Shown: positions 7,651-18,288 of the stretch, piece after piece
Layout: each line of letters opens with the position of its first letter
Numbering within the stretch: position 1 is the stretch's first letter
Source: a virus
IMG/VR virus record: IMGVR_UViG_3300025096_000009
Coordinates: 1-64,000 of that record
Strand: one strand, 5' to 3'
DNA: 64,000 nt
Notes under the pieces: model-generated
Databases searched by the model: none
What the model was told of the DNA's origin: nothing
What the model saw: the letters and a program-made list of their open reading frames with translations, nothing else
Position numbers and translations under genes: made by a program

Positions 7651-8490
7651 ATGGGTCAATATTTTAACCAACAGCCAGTAATCAACCTAGGTTCAGGGAC
7701 TACTTTTGGTAATGGTTATACCGATCGTAATGTCAACTTAGGAACATTTCCTATGTATGCCCAACCGCCACGGATGGTGCCTAATCCTGAATATAAAACT
7801 AATCCTTATGGGCTAGAAGATGATCAGGCTCTAGAGAAGTGGGGTAAAAGCAAGAAGATTGTTGGTAAAGATGCTCCAGAAGGACTAATGCGTAATCTTG
7901 CTGGAATTGCAGACTTTTTAACTTTTGGAGTAGGGGATATAGATAGAAGAGGTAATTTATTTGGTGGAGAACATTTACCAGGACTAAGAGGAGGATCAGG
8001 ATATGGAGGACAGGGCGAATTAGGAAATGTTCCACAGACAATGCCTGCTCCACAGATGCCTGCTCCACAGATGACTCAGGAGCCAAATGTTATGACGACA
8101 GGAGGGCCAGTACCTACTAATCAGGGTATGTATGGTCACCTAGCCCAAGCAGGTGGAATAGGAGCATTAAATCATTTTGCAGGTAGGTTTATGAATAATC
8201 AATACCTAAATGATGCATATAATATGGCTCTAAAATCTCGTCAAGCATCTGATGCTCAGAGTGTTTTAACTAGTCAAGCAATGCAAAGAACAGATAAAGG
8301 TGTGTCTGAAAGGATGGAGGAAGAGCAAAAGAGGAGGAATCTTGCCCTGCAGGGTAAATATCTAACTCGTTTAGGTTTGGAATCTATGAAGAAAGGAACG
8401 GCACTGACAAACGTAGCATATGAGCCTAGAGCAAATGCGTCTCACTCTTCCGGTCATGTTGGCAACTGGGGTGTACAAAGAATGGGTTAA
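7651..8490 (+). CDS. Hypothetical virion-operon protein
   Basis: 279 residues. A ribosome site GGAG lies about 8 bp before the ATG. It has a short tandem MPAPQ repeat (residues about 131-142), a glycine patch, and a helical C-terminal half (NDAYNMALKSRQASDAQSVL, then RMEEEQKRRNLALQGKYL). No known domain. By position it belongs with the virion components. Confidence 0.5.
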   Translation: MGQYFNQQPVINLGSGTTFGNGYTDRNVNLGTFPMYAQPPRMVPNPEYKTNPYGLEDDQALEKWGKSKKIVGKDAPEGLMRNLAGIADFLTFGVGDIDRRGNLFGGEHLPGLRGGSGYGGQGELGNVPQTMPAPQMPAPQMTQEPNVMTTGGPVPTNQGMYGHLAQAGGIGALNHFAGRFMNNQYLNDAYNMALKSRQASDAQSVLTSQAMQRTDKGVSERMEEEQKRRNLALQGKYLTRLGLESMKKGTALTNVAYEPRANASHSSGHVGNWGVQRMG

Positions 8491-8556
8491 TATCACATTA
8501 AGTTTATAACTTAACCGTTGGTAGAATCTAAGTACTGTTAATTAATAAAATTAGAA

Positions 8557-9804
8557 ATGGCTGACGATCCAGGTGGCGTTAAAGCTCAAGAAGCCGCTAA
8601 TAAAAAAGCGGATAAAAACTATACGATTGGCGGTGTTTCCTATACCGTTGATCAAGAAACGACTAACCAGTTAGTACTGGACGAAGCCGCTGCATCTCAA
8701 ACCAGGATCAACATGAAGTTGGCCGCTGATGAAGACAAGAAGTTAAAGACATATTTCACGACTGAAGAAAAAGGCATGGCGCAAACGCAGTCTGATCTTA
8801 GACGTGCAGAATATGGAACAATCGGTCAACAGGATCGACTAAAAGAAGGAGTCATTGGTTTAGAACGGCGAAAGGCGTTAGAAACTGAAGGAGCTGAAAC
8901 ACGAGAAACTGCTCAGACTGTTGGTGCACAGACTCGTTTAACTGAAACAACAAAAGGTCAACAGGAACGACTTACTCAAGCGGAAGGTCTTCAAGAAAGT
9001 GGAAGACAACAGCGAGAAACTCAAGCAGAACGTTATGTTGGAGAAAGAGGGTTAGAAGCAACTAGAGGTGCTGAAGCACGTAAGTTAACTGCAGCAACTG
9101 GCGAACAAGCAAGGGAGACACAGGCTGAGAGATACTCCGGAGAAAGGGGTCTTGTGGAAACAGGAGGAGCACAGCAAAGGCAAACTCAAGCTGAAAGATA
9201 TGTAGGAGAAAGAGGATTAGCAAGTACTGTTGCTGCTGAAGGAAGACAGACTCAAGCTGAAAAATATGCAGGGGAGAGAGGTCTTGTTGGAGCAACTGGC
9301 GAACAAGCAAGGGAGACTCAGGCTGAGAGATATGCAGGGGAGAGAGGTCTTCAGAAGGAAGGTGGTGCTCAGGCTCGACAGACACAGGCTGAAAGATATG
9401 CCGGAGAAAGGGGTCTTGTAGGGGAAGGAGGTAAGCAACAGCGTCAAACTCAAGCAGAGAAGTATGTTGGAGAAAGATCTCTTGTTGGAGCTGGTGGTAG
9501 AGAAACTAGACAGACTCAAGCTGAGCGTTATGCGGGTGAGAGAGGTTTACTTAGAACTGGTGGATCCGAGACACGAGCAACTAGACGAACTGAAGGACAG
9601 GAAACACGAGCTACTCAAGCCCAAGGTTTAAGGATTGGTGGATCAGAGACAAGGAAAACTAGACGAACTGAAGGAGGTCAAGCCAGAGCATTAGAAAGAA
9701 CCCGTGGAGGTGAGACTCGTCGTACAGACTTGCAAAGAGAATCATTCCGTAGATATAAAGAGGATAGGGATTATAGTCAAGCACGTTCTGCAACTAGAGT
9801 ATGA
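8557..9804 (+). CDS. 22-residue-repeat coiled-coil protein
   Basis: 415 residues, strongly hydrophilic and Arg/Glu/Gln-rich. Residues about 156-340 contain eight copies of an AERYxGERGL module. Seven follow each other at an exact 22-residue period (66 bp), usually joined by GGxQxRQTQ; one spacing is 33 residues. Periods of 11, 22 and 33 residues fit a long amphipathic helix of 11-residue type. The tail (TRRTEGQETRATQ) continues a looser Arg/Glu repeat. The stop overlaps the start of the presumed small terminase gene (ATGA). Possible roles are an internal scaffold, a minor capsid or a length-setting protein; none is proven. Confidence 0.6.
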   Translation: MADDPGGVKAQEAANKKADKNYTIGGVSYTVDQETTNQLVLDEAAASQTRINMKLAADEDKKLKTYFTTEEKGMAQTQSDLRRAEYGTIGQQDRLKEGVIGLERRKALETEGAETRETAQTVGAQTRLTETTKGQQERLTQAEGLQESGRQQRETQAERYVGERGLEATRGAEARKLTAATGEQARETQAERYSGERGLVETGGAQQRQTQAERYVGERGLASTVAAEGRQTQAEKYAGERGLVGATGEQARETQAERYAGERGLQKEGGAQARQTQAERYAGERGLVGEGGKQQRQTQAEKYVGERSLVGAGGRETRQTQAERYAGERGLLRTGGSETRATRRTEGQETRATQAQGLRIGGSETRKTRRTEGGQARALERTRGGETRRTDLQRESFRRYKEDRDYSQARSATRV

Positions 9805-10286
9805 TCGAATGGCTTAAGGGCCTTACCTCGAAAGATCGGGAAGCCTTTTTAGCCTTTTGTAAAAGAACTCGAAGCCCAATTCAAATGTATCTGTATGCCC
9901 GATTTTTAGGGTTTACAGGAAGCATTGTGAGTTGCGATAAATGGGCTCAGAGAAAATTCAAAAGGCGTAACTTCAATGCAGTATTAGAAGTTGAGATTGA
10001 CTCAATGCAGCAAGATATTGCTAATTTGAGAGATGGAATTCAGATGGGTATGGTTAAACAAGATATGGGTACCGCCAGGATTGCCATGCTTCAAAAAGAA
10101 TTGAGAGGTACAATTAAACAGTTAAGTGATGAGAAGGTATTACTTGACAAACAAGGTTTAATTCTTGCTGGTGCGGATAGAGCATTACGTGAAATGTTAT
10201 CTATTTTTAGAGACGATCCTGTTGAAGGACCTTTATCAGAAGCCTCAATGGGTGTTTGGACAAAGATCTTACAAGAAGAATCTTAA
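9801..10286 (+). CDS. Putative terminase small subunit
   Basis: 161 residues, directly before the large terminase gene and overlapping the previous stop by 4 bp. The N-terminal part (LTSKDREAFLAFCKRTRSP, then YARFLGFTGSIVSCDKWAQ) has the look of the helix-turn-helix DNA-recognition region of phage small terminases. The middle is a long predicted helix (residues 60-140), which would support oligomer formation. The call rests on position and general architecture, not on a clear family motif. Confidence 0.5.
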   Translation: MIEWLKGLTSKDREAFLAFCKRTRSPIQMYLYARFLGFTGSIVSCDKWAQRKFKRRNFNAVLEVEIDSMQQDIANLRDGIQMGMVKQDMGTARIAMLQKELRGTIKQLSDEKVLLDKQGLILAGADRALREMLSIFRDDPVEGPLSEASMGVWTKILQEES

Positions 10287-10310
10287 AACTTATTACGCTA
10301 TGCTACGCCA

Positions 10311-11834
10311 ATGGCAGGTACAAGCATCTATAGCGTCTACAGACGTACTGCAAGAGCAGCTGCTAAACAGCAGATAGTTAAGAAAACTTCATCTGTTGAT
10401 GTTGATCGTGCTCGTGAAGACTTCGCATATTTTTGTGATGTAGTTGGTAATAAACCACCAGCTGAGCATCATAAACAGTGGCATGAATATCTATGCACAG
10501 GGGAAAGTAGTGGTTGCTTAATTAATATTGCCGGACCAAACATAGATATTCTTGCTCCAAGGGGATCAGCTAAATCTACTGTTCTTGGTTTATTCACGGC
10601 ATGGTCTATTGGTGTACATGCTTTAAGGAGAATGCCACTAAAGATTCTCTATATTTCATACACCGTAGATGTGGCGAGACCGAAGAGTGCTGCAATTAAA
10701 AGAATTATTGAAGAGAATAAGATATACAAAGAGATTTTCCCCACAGTAAAGATTGCTAAAGGGATTAACTCAAATGAGTATTGGAGTATTGATTGGAAAT
10801 TTGCAGGTATTCGATCAACTGGTGAGGAAGAATTTAGTGTTTGTTGTGCAGGTTTGAAAGGTGCAGTTACTTCGAAACGTTCACATCTATGTATTATTGA
10901 TGACGCGATTAAAAGTGCAGATGATATAAAGAATAGGGACATTCGTCAGGCTATGGAGGATAACTGGAATGCTGTCATTGTTCCAACGATGTTTGAAGGC
11001 GGTAGAGCGGTTTGTCTCGGAACTCGTTTCCGCCACGACGATATTCATAACAGCACTTTCACTCCTGCGAATGATTGGGTGCAGATTATTCAGTCTGCTA
11101 TTACAGTGGATTCGAACGGAGACGAGATCTCTTATTGGCCGGATATGTGGTCCTTGGATTACCTTCGTGACCGCAGGAGACAAGCGCCGGTTGCTTTTAG
11201 TTTTCAGTATCAGAATCAGATTGTTCAAACTAGTGAATTATCTCTTTCACCTGATTTAATTGTTAAGGGTTCTATTGCTACTCAATTTGATGCAATGGGA
11301 GTAGGAGTTGATTTATCAGCTGGTGTGAGAGAACAGAATGATTTTACTGTTTTCGTTATGGGAGGACGTATTGGAAATAAGATTCATATCATTGATTGTA
11401 AAAGATTGAGGATAATGGGGAACTTGGAGAAGTTAGAAAGTCTTATGGAAATGATGGAAGAATGGGGAGTTATTCATGGAGAAGGAAAGAATTATTTTGC
11501 TACTGGTAGTTCAGTTCATATTTGGTCAGAAGCTGTTGCCTATCAGGCTTCTTTAGAGGCTGACTTTAAACGAATATGTCAGGGAGAGCATGGTTTATAT
11601 AATATGATTTGGCATGCAGTCAAAGGATTTCGCGGGGACAAAGTTGCTCGCTTTAGGGGAATTATGGGTCTCTTTGAACAACGTCGAATTACTTTTAATA
11701 AGTATCGAAAGTTCACTCATTTGACAGATGAAATTGTAAATTTTGGAGTTAGTTCTCATGATGACTGTGTTGACGCATTGGTATGGCTATGCAATGGATT
11801 GATGTCTAAAGGAAAACTAGAGTTAGAGTATTGA
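10311..11834 (+). CDS. terL: Terminase large subunit (DNA packaging ATPase/nuclease)
   Basis: 507 residues. It has an ATPase domain with Walker A APRGSAKST (residues 82-90), Walker B LCIIDD (193-198) and coupling motif LGTRF (236-240). An RNase H-fold nuclease domain follows, with GVDLSA (Asp334) and the C-terminal acidic cluster SHDDCVDAL (about 482-490). It pumps DNA into the empty head and cuts the concatemer. The ATP loop resembles T7-like and related podovirus/siphovirus terminases. It is preceded by the putative small subunit and followed by the AbrB-like and portal genes. Confidence 0.93.
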   Translation: MAGTSIYSVYRRTARAAAKQQIVKKTSSVDVDRAREDFAYFCDVVGNKPPAEHHKQWHEYLCTGESSGCLINIAGPNIDILAPRGSAKSTVLGLFTAWSIGVHALRRMPLKILYISYTVDVARPKSAAIKRIIEENKIYKEIFPTVKIAKGINSNEYWSIDWKFAGIRSTGEEEFSVCCAGLKGAVTSKRSHLCIIDDAIKSADDIKNRDIRQAMEDNWNAVIVPTMFEGGRAVCLGTRFRHDDIHNSTFTPANDWVQIIQSAITVDSNGDEISYWPDMWSLDYLRDRRRQAPVAFSFQYQNQIVQTSELSLSPDLIVKGSIATQFDAMGVGVDLSAGVREQNDFTVFVMGGRIGNKIHIIDCKRLRIMGNLEKLESLMEMMEEWGVIHGEGKNYFATGSSVHIWSEAVAYQASLEADFKRICQGEHGLYNMIWHAVKGFRGDKVARFRGIMGLFEQRRITFNKYRKFTHLTDEIVNFGVSSHDDCVDALVWLCNGLMSKGKLELEY

Positions 11835-12063: not shown

Positions 12064-14322
12064 ATGAGTGATACTGCTGTTAAATCTGGTCTCGACGCCA
12101 TTATTAAGTCGGTAGTAAATCGAGATGGTGGAGGAGAGGCCGACACGATGTTGGTTAATGCTCATCTTTCTCAAATGAAAATGTTTGGGATAAGACAAGG
12201 TGTTGAGTTCTATCCCGAGCAAGACAATTTTGGAACACAGAGATTTGATTTCGTTCAACAGGTTATAAAGTTCAACAAACTAGATGCAAGGCTTGATTCA
12301 ATATGGGATAGATTTTTAGCTTATGGAAAAGGACTTTTTTATATAAGACCTACTCAGAAAACTTATCGTCTCTACTGGTTTGATAAAGATTCATATAGAA
12401 CTTATTACACACCAGAAGGTGATTTAGAAGAGGTTGTTATCATATATCCCTATAAAGTTAAGTCTTCTAAGGGGTTTAAGGGTGTTGGGTTAAATACAGA
12501 TAAGCGTTATATGCGTTTACGGATTACTCCAGAAGAGATAGAAGAGTTTCATAGTGAGCAGGAGATAACTTTTGATAATGAAAATTTAGATTATTCCACC
12601 TTTGATAAGAAGGTTCATGAGAACAGCATGGAGTTTATTCCATGTGTTGAGGTCTTTAATAATCCAGACGCTTTTGGAACTGATGGTGCTGGCGAGTTTG
12701 AGTGGTTATCTAGTCAGATAATTGCTCATGATGAGATGGTAAAGAATATTCGTGCAAACTTATCATTCTTTGGTAATCCGACTCTCTTATCTTCACGTCC
12801 GAAGCAAGATATTATTGAACAAAATTCGGATGATGCAGCTCAAAGACCTAGCATTTCAAGTCAATCTGGTTTTCAATCAAACTTTGATCTTTCCAGTTCT
12901 ACTTTTAAACAAGATCCTACAACTAGACAACAACCAGGGTACATAGGGAAACCAGGTAGTGGTTACCGTGTGCCTAGAGTTATCGCCAACTTGGAGCCAA
13001 CAGACCGTGTTGGTTTTATTACTCCTAATGCTGTAGGAACTGATCAGGCTCGCTATGCAGAACAGTTAAGAAGTGAGATACGTCTTGCTTTAGGTGGTAT
13101 TGACGACTTAAGTATTACTAATGTAACTGCTACTGAGATTAAATCAGCTTATGGTCGTGTCAGTGCAACTGCCAAGAAGAAGTGTCTCCAGTTATATACC
13201 TATGGTGTTTGTAAGTGTTTTGAGCTAATGATTTTTCAGGAAGAACAAATCTTCCGTAAGTCTCTTGCTTATCAATCAGGAATTAAATATCCGATTCCTC
13301 CAGAGGATCCTGATGACGAAATTTTATATGAGAAGTATATAAAACAAAAAGAGAGATATGAAAACAAATTGCAGAAGGCTATTGATGCTGCTGTTGAGAC
13401 TAAAGAGATTCCAGATGGTGTTGTTGGATTAGCTCCAGATGGTGATAGGACAGTTAGTTGGCGTTGGATGGGGCCCGTTTATGAGGATACTGCTCAAGAT
13501 AAATTGAACCAATCTATCTTCACTAGGAACCTACAAGAATTGGGTGTTGATAGTATAGAAGCACTGAAGTATTTATTTCCTTCCAAAACCGACGACGAGA
13601 TTGCAGGTATGCTTTCTGGTTATCCGTTTAGAATGGTAGGAGAATTACAGCGGTCATATTCTCAACTTATTGACTTAGTCAATCAAGAAATGAGAACACC
13701 ACATCCACAGCAACCGAATTTACCGATGGCTGCGGATCCAAGATTGGACCTCACTCCATTCCTATACCGAACACTCGAATCATTACAGAAGGAAGTTACT
13801 TATGCAGGACGCTACCGTAGCGCCGACCCAATCGGCACCCCAAGTATCCCAGACCCAGCCGACCAGCTACGTGGCTCCAGCAGCCCAGTCAGCAGCCCAG
13901 GCTCCGGTAGTGGGAACATCTCCCCAATGGGTGGGGACCTCCCAGCCGATGGCGGCACCCGTGGCACAAGCGCCGGGCCAGACGGCAATTCCTTACCAGA
14001 ATTCAGTCCCTACAGCGTACAGCTCCCAGGTATCCCAGGCTCCCCAACAGCAGGAGAACCCATACAAGGAGGCGTTCAACAGAGTAGTGGGCGCCCTGAG
14101 TTCACCAGTCCAATTCCCGTTCCAGGGTCAACAGTCTCCTCAGACGCAAGTAATAGACCCGGCCAGTTACGCTTCCCAACAAACGACCCAGTTCGCCAGT
14201 CAGGTAGCTCCGACCTCTATGCCTGGGATCAGCAGCAACCAGGGATACTCGGCCAATTATTCCCAAACTTCAGCGGACAACCTGGAGATAACCGCAGACC
14301 AGCTCCTAAACAACGGCGTTAG
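12064..14322 (+). CDS. Portal protein with long Pro/Gly/Ser-rich C-terminal extension
   Basis: 752 residues, placed between terminase and scaffold/capsid genes as expected for a portal. Residues 1-560 are a mixed alpha/beta body with a long helical region (EKYIKQKERYENKLQKAIDA). From about residue 580 onward it becomes low-complexity, rich in Pro, Gly and Ser. This last part (173 codons) is encoded by DNA that also encodes the start of the scaffold protein in another frame. Typical podovirus portals are nearer 530-600 residues, so the tail is extra. The family is judged from position, length and neighbours. Confidence 0.75.
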   Translation: MSDTAVKSGLDAIIKSVVNRDGGGEADTMLVNAHLSQMKMFGIRQGVEFYPEQDNFGTQRFDFVQQVIKFNKLDARLDSIWDRFLAYGKGLFYIRPTQKTYRLYWFDKDSYRTYYTPEGDLEEVVIIYPYKVKSSKGFKGVGLNTDKRYMRLRITPEEIEEFHSEQEITFDNENLDYSTFDKKVHENSMEFIPCVEVFNNPDAFGTDGAGEFEWLSSQIIAHDEMVKNIRANLSFFGNPTLLSSRPKQDIIEQNSDDAAQRPSISSQSGFQSNFDLSSSTFKQDPTTRQQPGYIGKPGSGYRVPRVIANLEPTDRVGFITPNAVGTDQARYAEQLRSEIRLALGGIDDLSITNVTATEIKSAYGRVSATAKKKCLQLYTYGVCKCFELMIFQEEQIFRKSLAYQSGIKYPIPPEDPDDEILYEKYIKQKERYENKLQKAIDAAVETKEIPDGVVGLAPDGDRTVSWRWMGPVYEDTAQDKLNQSIFTRNLQELGVDSIEALKYLFPSKTDDEIAGMLSGYPFRMVGELQRSYSQLIDLVNQEMRTPHPQQPNLPMAADPRLDLTPFLYRTLESLQKEVTYAGRYRSADPIGTPSIPDPADQLRGSSSPVSSPGSGSGNISPMGGDLPADGGTRGTSAGPDGNSLPEFSPYSVQLPGIPGSPTAGEPIQGGVQQSSGRPEFTSPIPVPGSTVSSDASNRPGQLRFPTNDPVRQSGSSDLYAWDQQQPGILGQLFPNFSGQPGDNRRPAPKQRR

Positions 14323-14848
14323 TCCTGAAAGTATTCAAGTAATTGATCATTTTGGTCCTGACACTGCAGGTATCCTTAATGACTATTCATGTCAACTAGA
14401 AGACGCAGTATCATCTACTCATGGTCAGTTAAATGAAGCAGCAGGTCTACTTCAAGAGCTCTCTCAAGAGCATAGGGTTTACGAAAGAATCCTTACTGAT
14501 CCTGATATTCTTGCTGATTACACTTGTGAGTTCTTCGGTGAAAATGGTCCTTATCCTGTTCCCACCCAGCAGTATGCAGCTCCTCATGGTCAGGCAGTAG
14601 GTCAACAGTTCGCTAATGCTCCTCAGGTTACTGGTCAGCCTAACGTTACTGGACAAGCTCCAGCAGCAGCTCCAACACGCCCTGAGATGCCTGTACCTCC
14701 ACAGCCTCAACAGCAAGGGAACCCAACTGATTTCTGGAATAACTTCGGAAGTGCAGCTGATAGAGACCCACAGAATGCATGGCGTTATTTAAATGCAGCT
14801 CAACAGAGTCCTGAGATCTTCCGCCAGAAGCTTCTGGTAATGGAGTGA
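13802..14848 (+). CDS. Capsid assembly scaffold protein (overlaps portal frame)
   Basis: 348 residues in a different frame from the portal for its first 521 bp. A purine-rich ribosome site (AAGGAAG) lies 8 bp before the ATG and supports internal initiation. The N-terminal 170 residues are Gln/Pro/Ala-rich and probably disordered. Residues 175-250 are acidic and helical (SADNLEITADQLL..., QLEDAVSSTHGQLNEAAGLLQ), and the end is short and basic. Acidic, Gln/Pro-rich proteins just upstream of the major capsid gene are typical phage scaffolds that guide shell assembly and then leave. A hairpin terminator follows it. Confidence 0.72.
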   Translation: MQDATVAPTQSAPQVSQTQPTSYVAPAAQSAAQAPVVGTSPQWVGTSQPMAAPVAQAPGQTAIPYQNSVPTAYSSQVSQAPQQQENPYKEAFNRVVGALSSPVQFPFQGQQSPQTQVIDPASYASQQTTQFASQVAPTSMPGISSNQGYSANYSQTSADNLEITADQLLNNGVSPESIQVIDHFGPDTAGILNDYSCQLEDAVSSTHGQLNEAAGLLQELSQEHRVYERILTDPDILADYTCEFFGENGPYPVPTQQYAAPHGQAVGQQFANAPQVTGQPNVTGQAPAAAPTRPEMPVPPQPQQQGNPTDFWNNFGSAADRDPQNAWRYLNAAQQSPEIFRQKLLVME

Positions 14849-15632: not shown

Positions 15633-16778
15633 ATGTTTATTGACAATGATTTCCCGAAGCTGTTGGGTGCGGAACTATACCGTCCCCATCCAGCTTATAT
15701 AGTGGAAATGGCTGCAGAGCCAGTCGTCGTACACGACTTTACTAAGCAACCGGGTCAAACTGTTCAGCTAGATCGTTACCGTTTCTTCGGTAACCCTGGC
15801 ACGAAGACACAACGTGAGCGTACTCAGGATCAAACCATCGGTACAGCAAACAGTAGGTCTATCGTTAAGGACAAAGTACTTGTATCTCTTCGTGAGTATA
15901 CAGGTCCTGCTGACCCAAATAATAACGCTCTCCCTAGCACATTCAAAATTGCTCGTGAGACATTAATGACCGCTCAGCGTTTGCTGCTTGATACTGGGAA
16001 CCTTAATATGTTCCACCAGTCAATAGGTAGCCTTACGCTTCTTGATGACTACCGGAGATGGAGAGATAGAGTCTTCATTGACGAACTTTTCAAGACTGAA
16101 TCACGTGGTCAAAGTAGTGATTCACAAGGTGGATACTACTACCCTAATAACAAGGCTAAGACAAACTCAACTACTCTTACTGCTTATACAGCTACAGAGT
16201 ACGCTTCTGAGCGCTTTAAGTTCAATGTAAAAACTGACCTTCTAGAAGTTGTTAAGAGTCTACGTAAGCGTCACGTACCAGTTTTCGCAGATGGCTACTA
16301 TCGTTGCATAGCAGATCCTTCACTTATGAAAGATCTTCGTGCTGATCAAGGCTTCCGTGAAGTTGCACGTTACCCAGGAATGGGCGCTCCTAACCCTCTT
16401 ATGGGTGCACAAGCTCCTAACTCAGCTATCTACGGTGGCGGCCAATTCGGTCAGGCACAATTCGTAGCTGGAGAGCCAGTTATGCCATCAGGCTTCGTTT
16501 TTGAAGGTGTAAGATTCTTCGAATCTACAAACTTCCCAGGAAAAACTATCACGGTCGACATCGGTGATGGTAATGGAGCCGTTTCAAAAGACACTCCTGC
16601 AGGATTATTCTTCGGTCCTCAGGCAATCGGTGTAGGTATTGGTGGTCCAAATGCTCAAGTTCTAATTAATAACAACGATGACTTCTCAAGATTCATCATT
16701 CTTATTTGGCAGCTTTATGCTGGTTTTGCGAACTTGAATAAGGACTTCATCACTACAGCCTTCACTGTATCTGAGTAA
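15633..16778 (+). CDS. Major capsid protein
   Basis: 381 residues. Position after portal and scaffold, size and composition fit an HK97-fold shell protein. An N-terminal arm is followed by VSLREYTGPAD, a YYRCIADPSLMKDLRAD segment and a GxFFxxxxFPG-type strand region (VRFFESTNFPG), a pattern also seen in N4-gp56-type capsid proteins. Codons look more uniform and C-ending at Phe/Tyr/Asn than in neighbours, as expected for a highly expressed gene. The next gene has a strong ribosome site directly after the stop. Confidence 0.82.
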   Translation: MFIDNDFPKLLGAELYRPHPAYIVEMAAEPVVVHDFTKQPGQTVQLDRYRFFGNPGTKTQRERTQDQTIGTANSRSIVKDKVLVSLREYTGPADPNNNALPSTFKIARETLMTAQRLLLDTGNLNMFHQSIGSLTLLDDYRRWRDRVFIDELFKTESRGQSSDSQGGYYYPNNKAKTNSTTLTAYTATEYASERFKFNVKTDLLEVVKSLRKRHVPVFADGYYRCIADPSLMKDLRADQGFREVARYPGMGAPNPLMGAQAPNSAIYGGGQFGQAQFVAGEPVMPSGFVFEGVRFFESTNFPGKTITVDIGDGNGAVSKDTPAGLFFGPQAIGVGIGGPNAQVLINNNDDFSRFIILIWQLYAGFANLNKDFITTAFTVSE

Positions 16779-17847: not shown

Positions 17848-18288
17848 ATGTTGTACCAGTACAGAGTCACAGGTGGTCTTGTGGAAGTCATATCAAAACA
17901 TGGCGATGGGATCATGATGTGTCTTGATGCCCAAGATGAAGTTCTTTACGTAGACGAGGGAGATTTAACTCCCCATTTAGATGCTACTAATGAGAAGTTG
18001 CGTACAGAAGAGAGGCTTACTGCAGAGTTAGCAGCTGAAGGAGTAAAGCCTGCTAAGTTAACTACGCGAGAGACATTCCCAGTCGATGTACGTGTCAATA
18101 TTAATAATGCTTCTGCACGTCAAATTGCGGATGCATTACCTGGAGTTGGTCTTAAAACAGCTAGGGACATCAAAGATCTTCAAACTTCTCAGTCTGGAGA
18201 AAAGTTCCAAAAACTAGAGCAGTTGAGAAATATTAAAAGAGTAGATTGGGATCAGATTTTCAAAGAGAACTTAGTCCGAGTAGACTGA
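17848..18288 (+). CDS. Helix-hairpin-helix (ComEA-like) protein in head-completion position
   Basis: 146 residues. Residues 83-138 read as a ComEA-type double helix-hairpin-helix DNA-binding unit: VNINNASARQIADALPGVGL then TARDIKDL and GEKFQKLEQLRNIKRV. The N-terminal 50 residues look like a small beta domain. Such a domain binds DNA backbone without sequence preference. Its place between the capsid and connector genes suggests contact with packaged DNA at the neck, or a head-closure role; this is inference. Confidence 0.65.
   Translation: MLYQYRVTGGLVEVISKHGDGIMMCLDAQDEVLYVDEGDLTPHLDATNEKLRTEERLTAELAAEGVKPAKLTTRETFPVDVRVNINNASARQIADALPGVGLKTARDIKDLQTSQSGEKFQKLEQLRNIKRVDWDQIFKENLVRVD

Follow-up and report, generated by a model that had tools for sequence, protein, structure and literature searches.

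Probable dual coding in a 521 bp overlap of the portal gene and a putative scaffolding protein gene in cyanophages of the S-EIV1 lineage

In cyanophages related to Synechococcus phage S-EIV1, the 3' end of the portal gene and the 5' part of the following gene, which probably encodes the scaffolding protein, occupy the same DNA in different reading frames. The best explanation of the evidence as a whole is a same-strand, long-standing dual-coding overlap of two head-assembly genes, to which a probability of roughly 0.9 can be attached; that the overlap is a genuine and conserved dual-coding region appears, on comparative grounds, highly likely. Comparison of relatives has shown both frames to be open and, to judge from their substitution patterns, under purifying selection in both clades of the lineage, with the start and ribosome sites of the second gene conserved. 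The shared DNA accounts for half of the coding sequence of the probable scaffold and for almost one-quarter of that of the portal.

The window, as the whole stretch of 64,000 nucleotides analysed here is called, is part of a 79,617-base (79.6 kb) virus record and is a member of the S-EIV1 lineage of cyanophages, which is widespread but has received little study. Among named phages, the closest to the window is S-EIV1 itself (KJ410740; L081 in the coordinates given below), an isolate of a high-arctic lake, with which it shares 63% identity in the terminase, 52% in the portal, 69% in the capsid protein and 39% in the second protein. Hundreds of relatives are present in IMG/VR and split into two clades, one window-like (W) and the other S-EIV1-like, the portal cores of which are approximately 55% identical; the two clades have been found in fresh, brackish and marine metagenomes. 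The order of genes in the window is large terminase, a small gene, portal, the second ORF, two small genes and the major capsid protein. Several other features of the neighbourhood were recorded. An ORF of 415 aa upstream of the terminase (8557-9804) contains degenerate repeats such as QTQAERYAGERGL, and DNA repeat units of 66 and 132 bp lie within it at 9093-9477. A helix-hairpin-helix domain protein (PF12836, E=6.5e-7) is encoded at 17848-18288, inside the structural gene cluster. The large terminase of S-EIV1 (L081 2532-5072) carries an intein splicing domain (Pfam PF14890, residues 202-526), an insert that is missing from the window terminase (507 aa, against 846 aa in S-EIV1).

The identity of the first gene product as a portal protein is well supported. 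Profile searches matched it to phrog_20475 (virion structural protein, head and packaging; E=3.8e-213) and, over residues 59-241, to the portal family phrog_64 (E=1.2e-5), and all Foldseek matches in the PDB at E<=0.001 were portals (best VIA Z 8.0), obtained with a poor model (pLDDT 39.8) of which only residues ~55-207 align. Searches with this protein against Pfam, and with its profile against PDB sequences, returned no match. The portal tail comprises 170-185 codons and is of low complexity, and its last residues are basic and variable in length. The second protein had no match in PHROGs, Pfam or BFVD, only a meaningless one among PDB sequences, and none by hhalign to gp9 of T7 or P-SSP7; scaffolds diverge fast, and the model used is weak. 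In its predicted structure (mean pLDDT 48.7), the N-terminal half is disordered, residues 188-232 form a 45-residue helix and further helices lie at the C terminus (308-347); the gene sits between the portal and major capsid genes. Position, size, the predicted combination of disorder and helices, and the lack of any other candidate before the capsid gene make it probable that the second protein is the scaffold. That label had already been given in a first-pass annotation made from the sequence alone, and position and predicted helices fit it; it should be read as likely rather than proven.

Table 1. Features of the portal and second-gene region (positions in the window)
Feature	Position	Strand	Description
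Portal gene	12064..14322	+	752 aa; core to ~residue 585, followed by a Pro/Gly/Ser-rich tail
Synonymous-constrained portal stretch	13540..13801	+	candidate cis-acting element upstream of the second start codon
Most conserved block, GTTGATAGYATWGAAGCACTGAA	13546..13568	+	23 nt, nearly invariant synonymous sites
Second conserved block, TTACCGATGGCTGCGGATCC	13720..13739	+	CUGCG could pair with UGCAG at the second start codon
Shine-Dalgarno sequence of second gene, AGGAAG	13790..13795	+	within portal Lys-Glu codons
Second ORF (probable scaffolding protein gene)	13802..14848	+	348 aa; starts inside the portal gene, +1 frame relative to portal
Probable dual-coding overlap	13802..14322	+	521 bp, GC island; two open frames, each under purifying selection
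Second-frame motif NPYKEAFNRVVGALSSPVQFPFQG (residues 86-109)	14057..14128	+	contains the one helix (87-100) predicted within the overlap
Portal-frame motif TSPIPVPGST (residues 681-690)	14104..14133	+	bases partly shared with the NPYKEAFNRVVGALSSPVQFPFQG motif
Portal-frame motif QPGILGQLFPN (residues 725-735)	14236..14268	+	just 5' of the variable basic C terminus
Major capsid gene	15633-16778		assigned by phrog_1357

The positions and frames that the first-pass annotation had assigned to the two ORFs proved exact on recheck, and its hand counts of GC (20, 39, 44 and 33 of 60) were reproduced exactly. The GC content is 0.593 in the overlap, 0.384 in the upstream portal sequence and 0.462 in the downstream part of the second gene. 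The jump in GC had been noted to coincide with the overlap, and this is borne out across the lineage: the overlap exceeds either flank in 192/192 loci. These are the distinct related loci, among the matches listed, in which both the portal and the second gene are complete, and in all of them both frames are open and the second gene begins with ATG. In the 128 aligned loci, the overlap measures between 512 and 635 bp and the ATG site is common to all; not one of these 128 has an open third frame. Both products look disordered within the overlap, as had been anticipated. The comparison of homologues that the first-pass annotation had recommended therefore finds both frames conserved in the 192 distinct loci, with three exceptions. 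In one contig (L178, 3000-3700, reversed), a deletion joins the second frame to that of the portal, so that both genes are broken, which indicates either a defective genome or an assembly fault; a second locus (L360) has many indels in both genes, and in a third (L211) the second gene is shortened. Relatives with a portal ending near 13800, which had been named as the observation that would speak against dual coding, were absent from the matches listed, and L178 stops early only through its deletion.

Open length by itself, in a single genome, is weak evidence of coding. When the amino acids of the portal were kept and its codons redrawn in one genome, the +1 frame was open in 10-17% of draws, so the earlier caveat that GC-rich DNA contains fewer chance stops is a fair one. 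When the scaffold amino acids were kept, the portal frame was open in 0/20,000 draws under genome codon usage and in 2.6% when the segment's own codons were permuted. The evidence that goes beyond chance is comparative and consists of the 192 loci open in both frames, the third frame open in 0/128 and the signature of purifying selection in both frames.

Following the approach of OLGenie, substitutions in 125 pairs were sorted according to what they change in each frame. The portal-frame dS is 1.27 upstream but only 0.18 within the overlap, and the second-frame dS, which is 0.94 downstream, is reduced to 0.27 there. With the effect of the other frame held constant, omega was 0.41 (0.31-0.54) for the portal frame (w_portal) and 0.26 (0.21-0.34) for the second frame (w_scaf), while non-coding control frames of the same genes gave 0.71 (portal upstream) and 0.99 (second gene downstream). 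Disjoint pairs yielded a w_portal of 0.40 and a w_scaf of 0.32 in the W clade only, and 0.45 and 0.24, respectively, in the S-EIV1 clade only. The dual-frame synonymous-rate test proposed at the outset, run in this form, thus indicates constraint in both frames, and a frame lacking constraint, the other observation named as speaking against dual coding, was not encountered. Inside the overlap, double-silent sites (dSS) are saturated and sites that alter either protein are not; because the double-silent sites are saturated, the low dS reflects neither a low mutation rate nor a general nucleotide constraint.

Evolution was also simulated with one frame coding at a time. Portal-only evolution gave a w_scaf of 0.82-0.89, with a lower bound of 0.63, and scaffold-only evolution gave a w_portal of 0.70, with a lower bound of 0.54; the other frame remained open in only 14-38% of lineages (14-19% under scaffold-only evolution). 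Single-frame simulations fail to reproduce the observed pattern. The portal frame gives the weaker signal, as the observed w_portal has an upper bound (0.54) that just reaches the lower bound of the scaffold-only null (0.54). By omega alone this is the closer call, but it is accompanied by 23 residues of the tail that do not vary and by a frame that every intact relative keeps open. This evidence bears on the proposal that the scaffold frame alone codes, the portal effectively ending near 13800 and its tail being open by chance in GC-rich DNA. Such a reading would accommodate the lower omega of the scaffold frame and the low complexity and variable end length of the portal tail, but it is hard to reconcile with a portal frame open in 192 distinct loci, with intact relatives free of a portal stop near 13800, with the draws that so rarely leave this frame open (0/20,000, or 2.6% with permuted codons), with the simulated values (frame kept in 14-19% of lineages; w_portal 0.70 against the observed 0.41) or with the invariance across clades of the 23 residues between P649 and N735, and is considered very unlikely.

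The constraint on the two frames is not divided into separate territories of the overlap. The second-frame motif NPYKEAFNRVVGALSSPVQFPFQG and the portal motif TSPIPVPGST share bases within 14062-14139; w_scaf is 0.08 there, and the synonymous codon diversity of the portal drops to 0.01-0.02 of expectation at ~14080. Residues P87, A91, F92, V95, V96, L99, S100, P102, V103, P106 and F107 of the second-frame motif are invariant, as are S682, I684, P685, P687, G688 and T690 of TSPIPVPGST (alignment A4). The bases of QPGILGQLFPN, in which Q725, P726, G727, L732, F733, P734 and N735 are invariant in the same alignment, also encode the second-frame region around NYSQTS, towards the 3' end of the overlap. 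In all, 23 residues of the portal tail, from P649 to N735, are invariant across the clades.

The start of the second gene is also conserved. Its ATG occupies an identical site in 128/128 aligned loci, and residues M1 and Q2 of its product are invariant. At the site matching the Shine-Dalgarno sequence of the window, relatives have AGGAG, GAGGT or AGGA (in the contexts AAGGAG, AAGGAA or AAAGAGGT), and AAA GAA, which is the commonest Lys-Glu codon pair elsewhere in the portal, is found there in 0/128 loci. The ribosome site is maintained through alternative synonymous codons, and the good ribosome site that the first-pass annotation had described for a scaffold start at 13802 is upheld by the conservation of both ATG and Shine-Dalgarno. 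The start corresponds to portal codon 580, within the last predicted helix of the portal (564-583) and just before the unstructured tail.

These start signals bear on two further alternatives. If the portal frame alone coded and the second gene began later, at about residue 193, the S-EIV1 GenBank record, whose annotation begins at 8315 in L081, would be correct, and chance alone could leave the +1 frame open (10-17% of draws, one genome). A w_scaf of 0.26, against 0.82-0.89 under the portal-only null, the invariant M1 and Q2, the conserved ribosome site and the invariant helix-like motif at residues 86-110 all contradict this view, which has the lowest probability of the alternatives considered. 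Programmed frameshifting from the portal into the second frame would make use of a long and open +1 frame, and the resulting portal-scaffold fusion would provide a neat assembly nucleator through its fused scaffold domain. Against it stand a second-frame stop located directly upstream of the ATG (3 nt) in 122/129 loci, the conservation of ATG and Shine-Dalgarno, and a portal stop whose position varies (overlap of 512-635 bp), and frameshifting of this kind is highly improbable, slightly more so than coding by the scaffold frame alone, though a shift within the overlap itself is conceivable.

The constraint at the DNA level begins before the overlap. In both clades, the synonymous codon diversity of the portal gene falls abruptly near 13540, ~260 nt ahead of the scaffold ATG, and the constraint on 13540-13801, where there is no other open frame, suggests a putative cis-acting element. 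In its most conserved block, GTTGATAGYATWGAAGCACTGAA, which is present as a single copy in the window, the codons GTT, GAT, GCA and CTG are invariant across both clades, bar one frame-shifted alignment row. The CUGCG/UGCAG pair involving the second block hardly varies, and covariation speaks neither for nor against the pairing. The RNA folding energy of 13530-13831 is below that of shuffled controls (z -3.7 here and -2.9 in S-EIV1). Windows of 120 nt from ~13500 to 13920 have a mean z of -1.1 to -1.2, compared with mostly -0.3 to -1.0 elsewhere in the portal, where one window further upstream reaches -1.5; the key pairs given by RNAalifold are nearly unvarying, so that the covariation evidence for a structure is thin. 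A search of the window against Rfam found no match. Two other candidates were rejected for 13540-13800: a hidden third gene, since all other frames are interrupted by one or more stops in each locus, and a promoter, since a scan gave no plus-strand sigma-70 site and a possible -10 hexamer is not conserved.

These observations are also the ones that favour a nucleotide-level constraint, such as RNA structure or a packaging signal, of which the open frames would be a side effect: synonymous constraint starts 260 nt before the second ATG, where the second frame is not open, and folding energy is low over 13530-13831 (z -3.7 in the window, -2.9 in S-EIV1). Inside the overlap, however, fold z-scores are near zero past the first 120 nt, and a nucleotide-level constraint would slow double-silent and protein-changing sites alike, whereas the former are saturated and the latter are not. 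The double-silent sites largely refute this explanation, which ranks between frameshifting and portal-only coding in probability. The stretch at 13540-13800 is better regarded as a candidate control element for scaffold expression, a role that is unproven. It may be speculated that a conserved RNA or DNA element in this stretch, including GTTGATAGYATWGAAGCACTGAA and a possible start-codon hairpin, sets the ratio of scaffold to portal, while the shared dual-coded tails let both proteins meet in head assembly; this is a tentative proposal, rather doubtful at present, and if true, one piece of DNA would tie the portal/scaffold expression ratio to the physical partnership of the two proteins.

The first-pass annotation had further supposed that one of the two tails was created by overprinting. 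This is not established, as both clades carry the overlap and an outgroup without it was not found. The queries used were the portal, alignments, an unbiased portal motif and a scaffold C-terminal motif, together with tblastn searches with the portal, second protein, capsid and terminase, and no outgroup lacking the overlap was present among the matches listed (IMG/VR viral contigs, genome contigs and a phage collection). Outside the two clades, the matches listed include only a terminase in MW202426 (20% identity) and capsid matches that are weak and partial. Because all relatives listed fall in the two overlap-bearing clades, the ancestral frame is not polarised. On one reading, the ancestral portal ended near 13800 beside the scaffold start, as in P-SSP7, and was later extended into the scaffold gene; on another, the scaffold acquired an upstream start within a pre-existing portal tail. 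Chance openness and codon usage lean slightly towards the second of these, a new upstream scaffold start, but the two frames have evolved together for so long that both indications are confounded. Within the overlap, neither frame follows the codon usage typical of the phage; in 110/128 loci the portal frame comes slightly nearer to it. Codon usage was set aside as a guide to the older frame, given how small this difference is, the relatedness of the loci and the distortion of both frames by long co-evolution. The rise in GC need not signal a recent origin either, as Pro/Gly/Ser/Ala/Gln codons that satisfy two frames account for it.

Under dual coding, the scaffold gene would start where the folded core of the portal ends, and its N-terminal half would be encoded by the bases of the portal tail. 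One mRNA may yield both proteins, with ribosomes reading through the portal gene to make the portal tail and initiating internally, or by coupling, to make the scaffold. One DNA stretch can serve two proteins presumably because both products are disordered there. The two disordered tails presumably face the interior of the procapsid, where the C-terminal helices of the scaffold would bind the coat protein and its N-terminal half would meet the portal. The portal is present in ~12 copies and the scaffold is needed in far more, so simple coupled translation alone does not give the right ratio.

In S-EIV1, the gene order, the overlap (portal L081:5989-8292, second ORF 7739-8716) and the ATG site are as in the window. 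Its GenBank record lists both genes as hypothetical proteins and annotates the second only at its 3' end (8315-8716), which covers the last 133 of the 325 residues of the second protein (from residue 193). Because only this 3' end is annotated, the overlap is invisible in the public record. The major capsid gene of S-EIV1 also seems to be mis-annotated: the homologous ORF is L081 9311-10462 (383 aa, GTG start), and GenBank has at this locus an antisense CDS (9236-9997) and only the 3' part of the gene (9992-10462). A truncated second gene has thus hidden the overlap in the sole sequenced isolate, an annotation blind spot that may conceal similar cases in other phages. An earlier description of a portal/scaffold overlap, of overprinting in tailed phages or of translational coupling of this kind was not found in the open-licence literature; overlapping genes are of a known kind, and it is their portal-scaffold setting for which no earlier report was found. 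The gene pair is a natural test case for asking how a single sequence accommodates two disordered tails, and whether portal and scaffold touch via these tails.

Genes 8 and 9 of T7 and their P-SSP7 counterparts show the same order as the window, with portal, scaffold and major capsid genes on one strand, and profile comparison of both window proteins with these counterparts detected no similarity. The junctions differ, as the portal and scaffold genes are separated by a 99-nt gap in T7 and overlap by 1 nt in P-SSP7, against 521 bp in the window. The lambda C/Nu3 pair also consists of a head-assembly gene and a scaffold that share DNA, the scaffold arising from an internal start in the same frame and sharing its amino-acid sequence with the larger product; the window pair, in contrast, lies in different frames, and its proteins share no amino-acid sequence. 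Overprinted overlapping genes, in which two proteins are encoded in different frames and both are under selection, have been described for small viruses (PMC8227390, a review of small eukaryotic viruses that mentions neither scaffolds nor tailed phages). Unlike those cases, the present one involves a large tailed dsDNA phage and a terminal overlap of head-assembly genes rather than a nested gene. Gene compression is not usually regarded as a need of large tailed phages, yet the overlap persists across two clades, and head-assembly genes can evidently maintain long out-of-frame overlaps, probably owing to the disorder of both products in this region.
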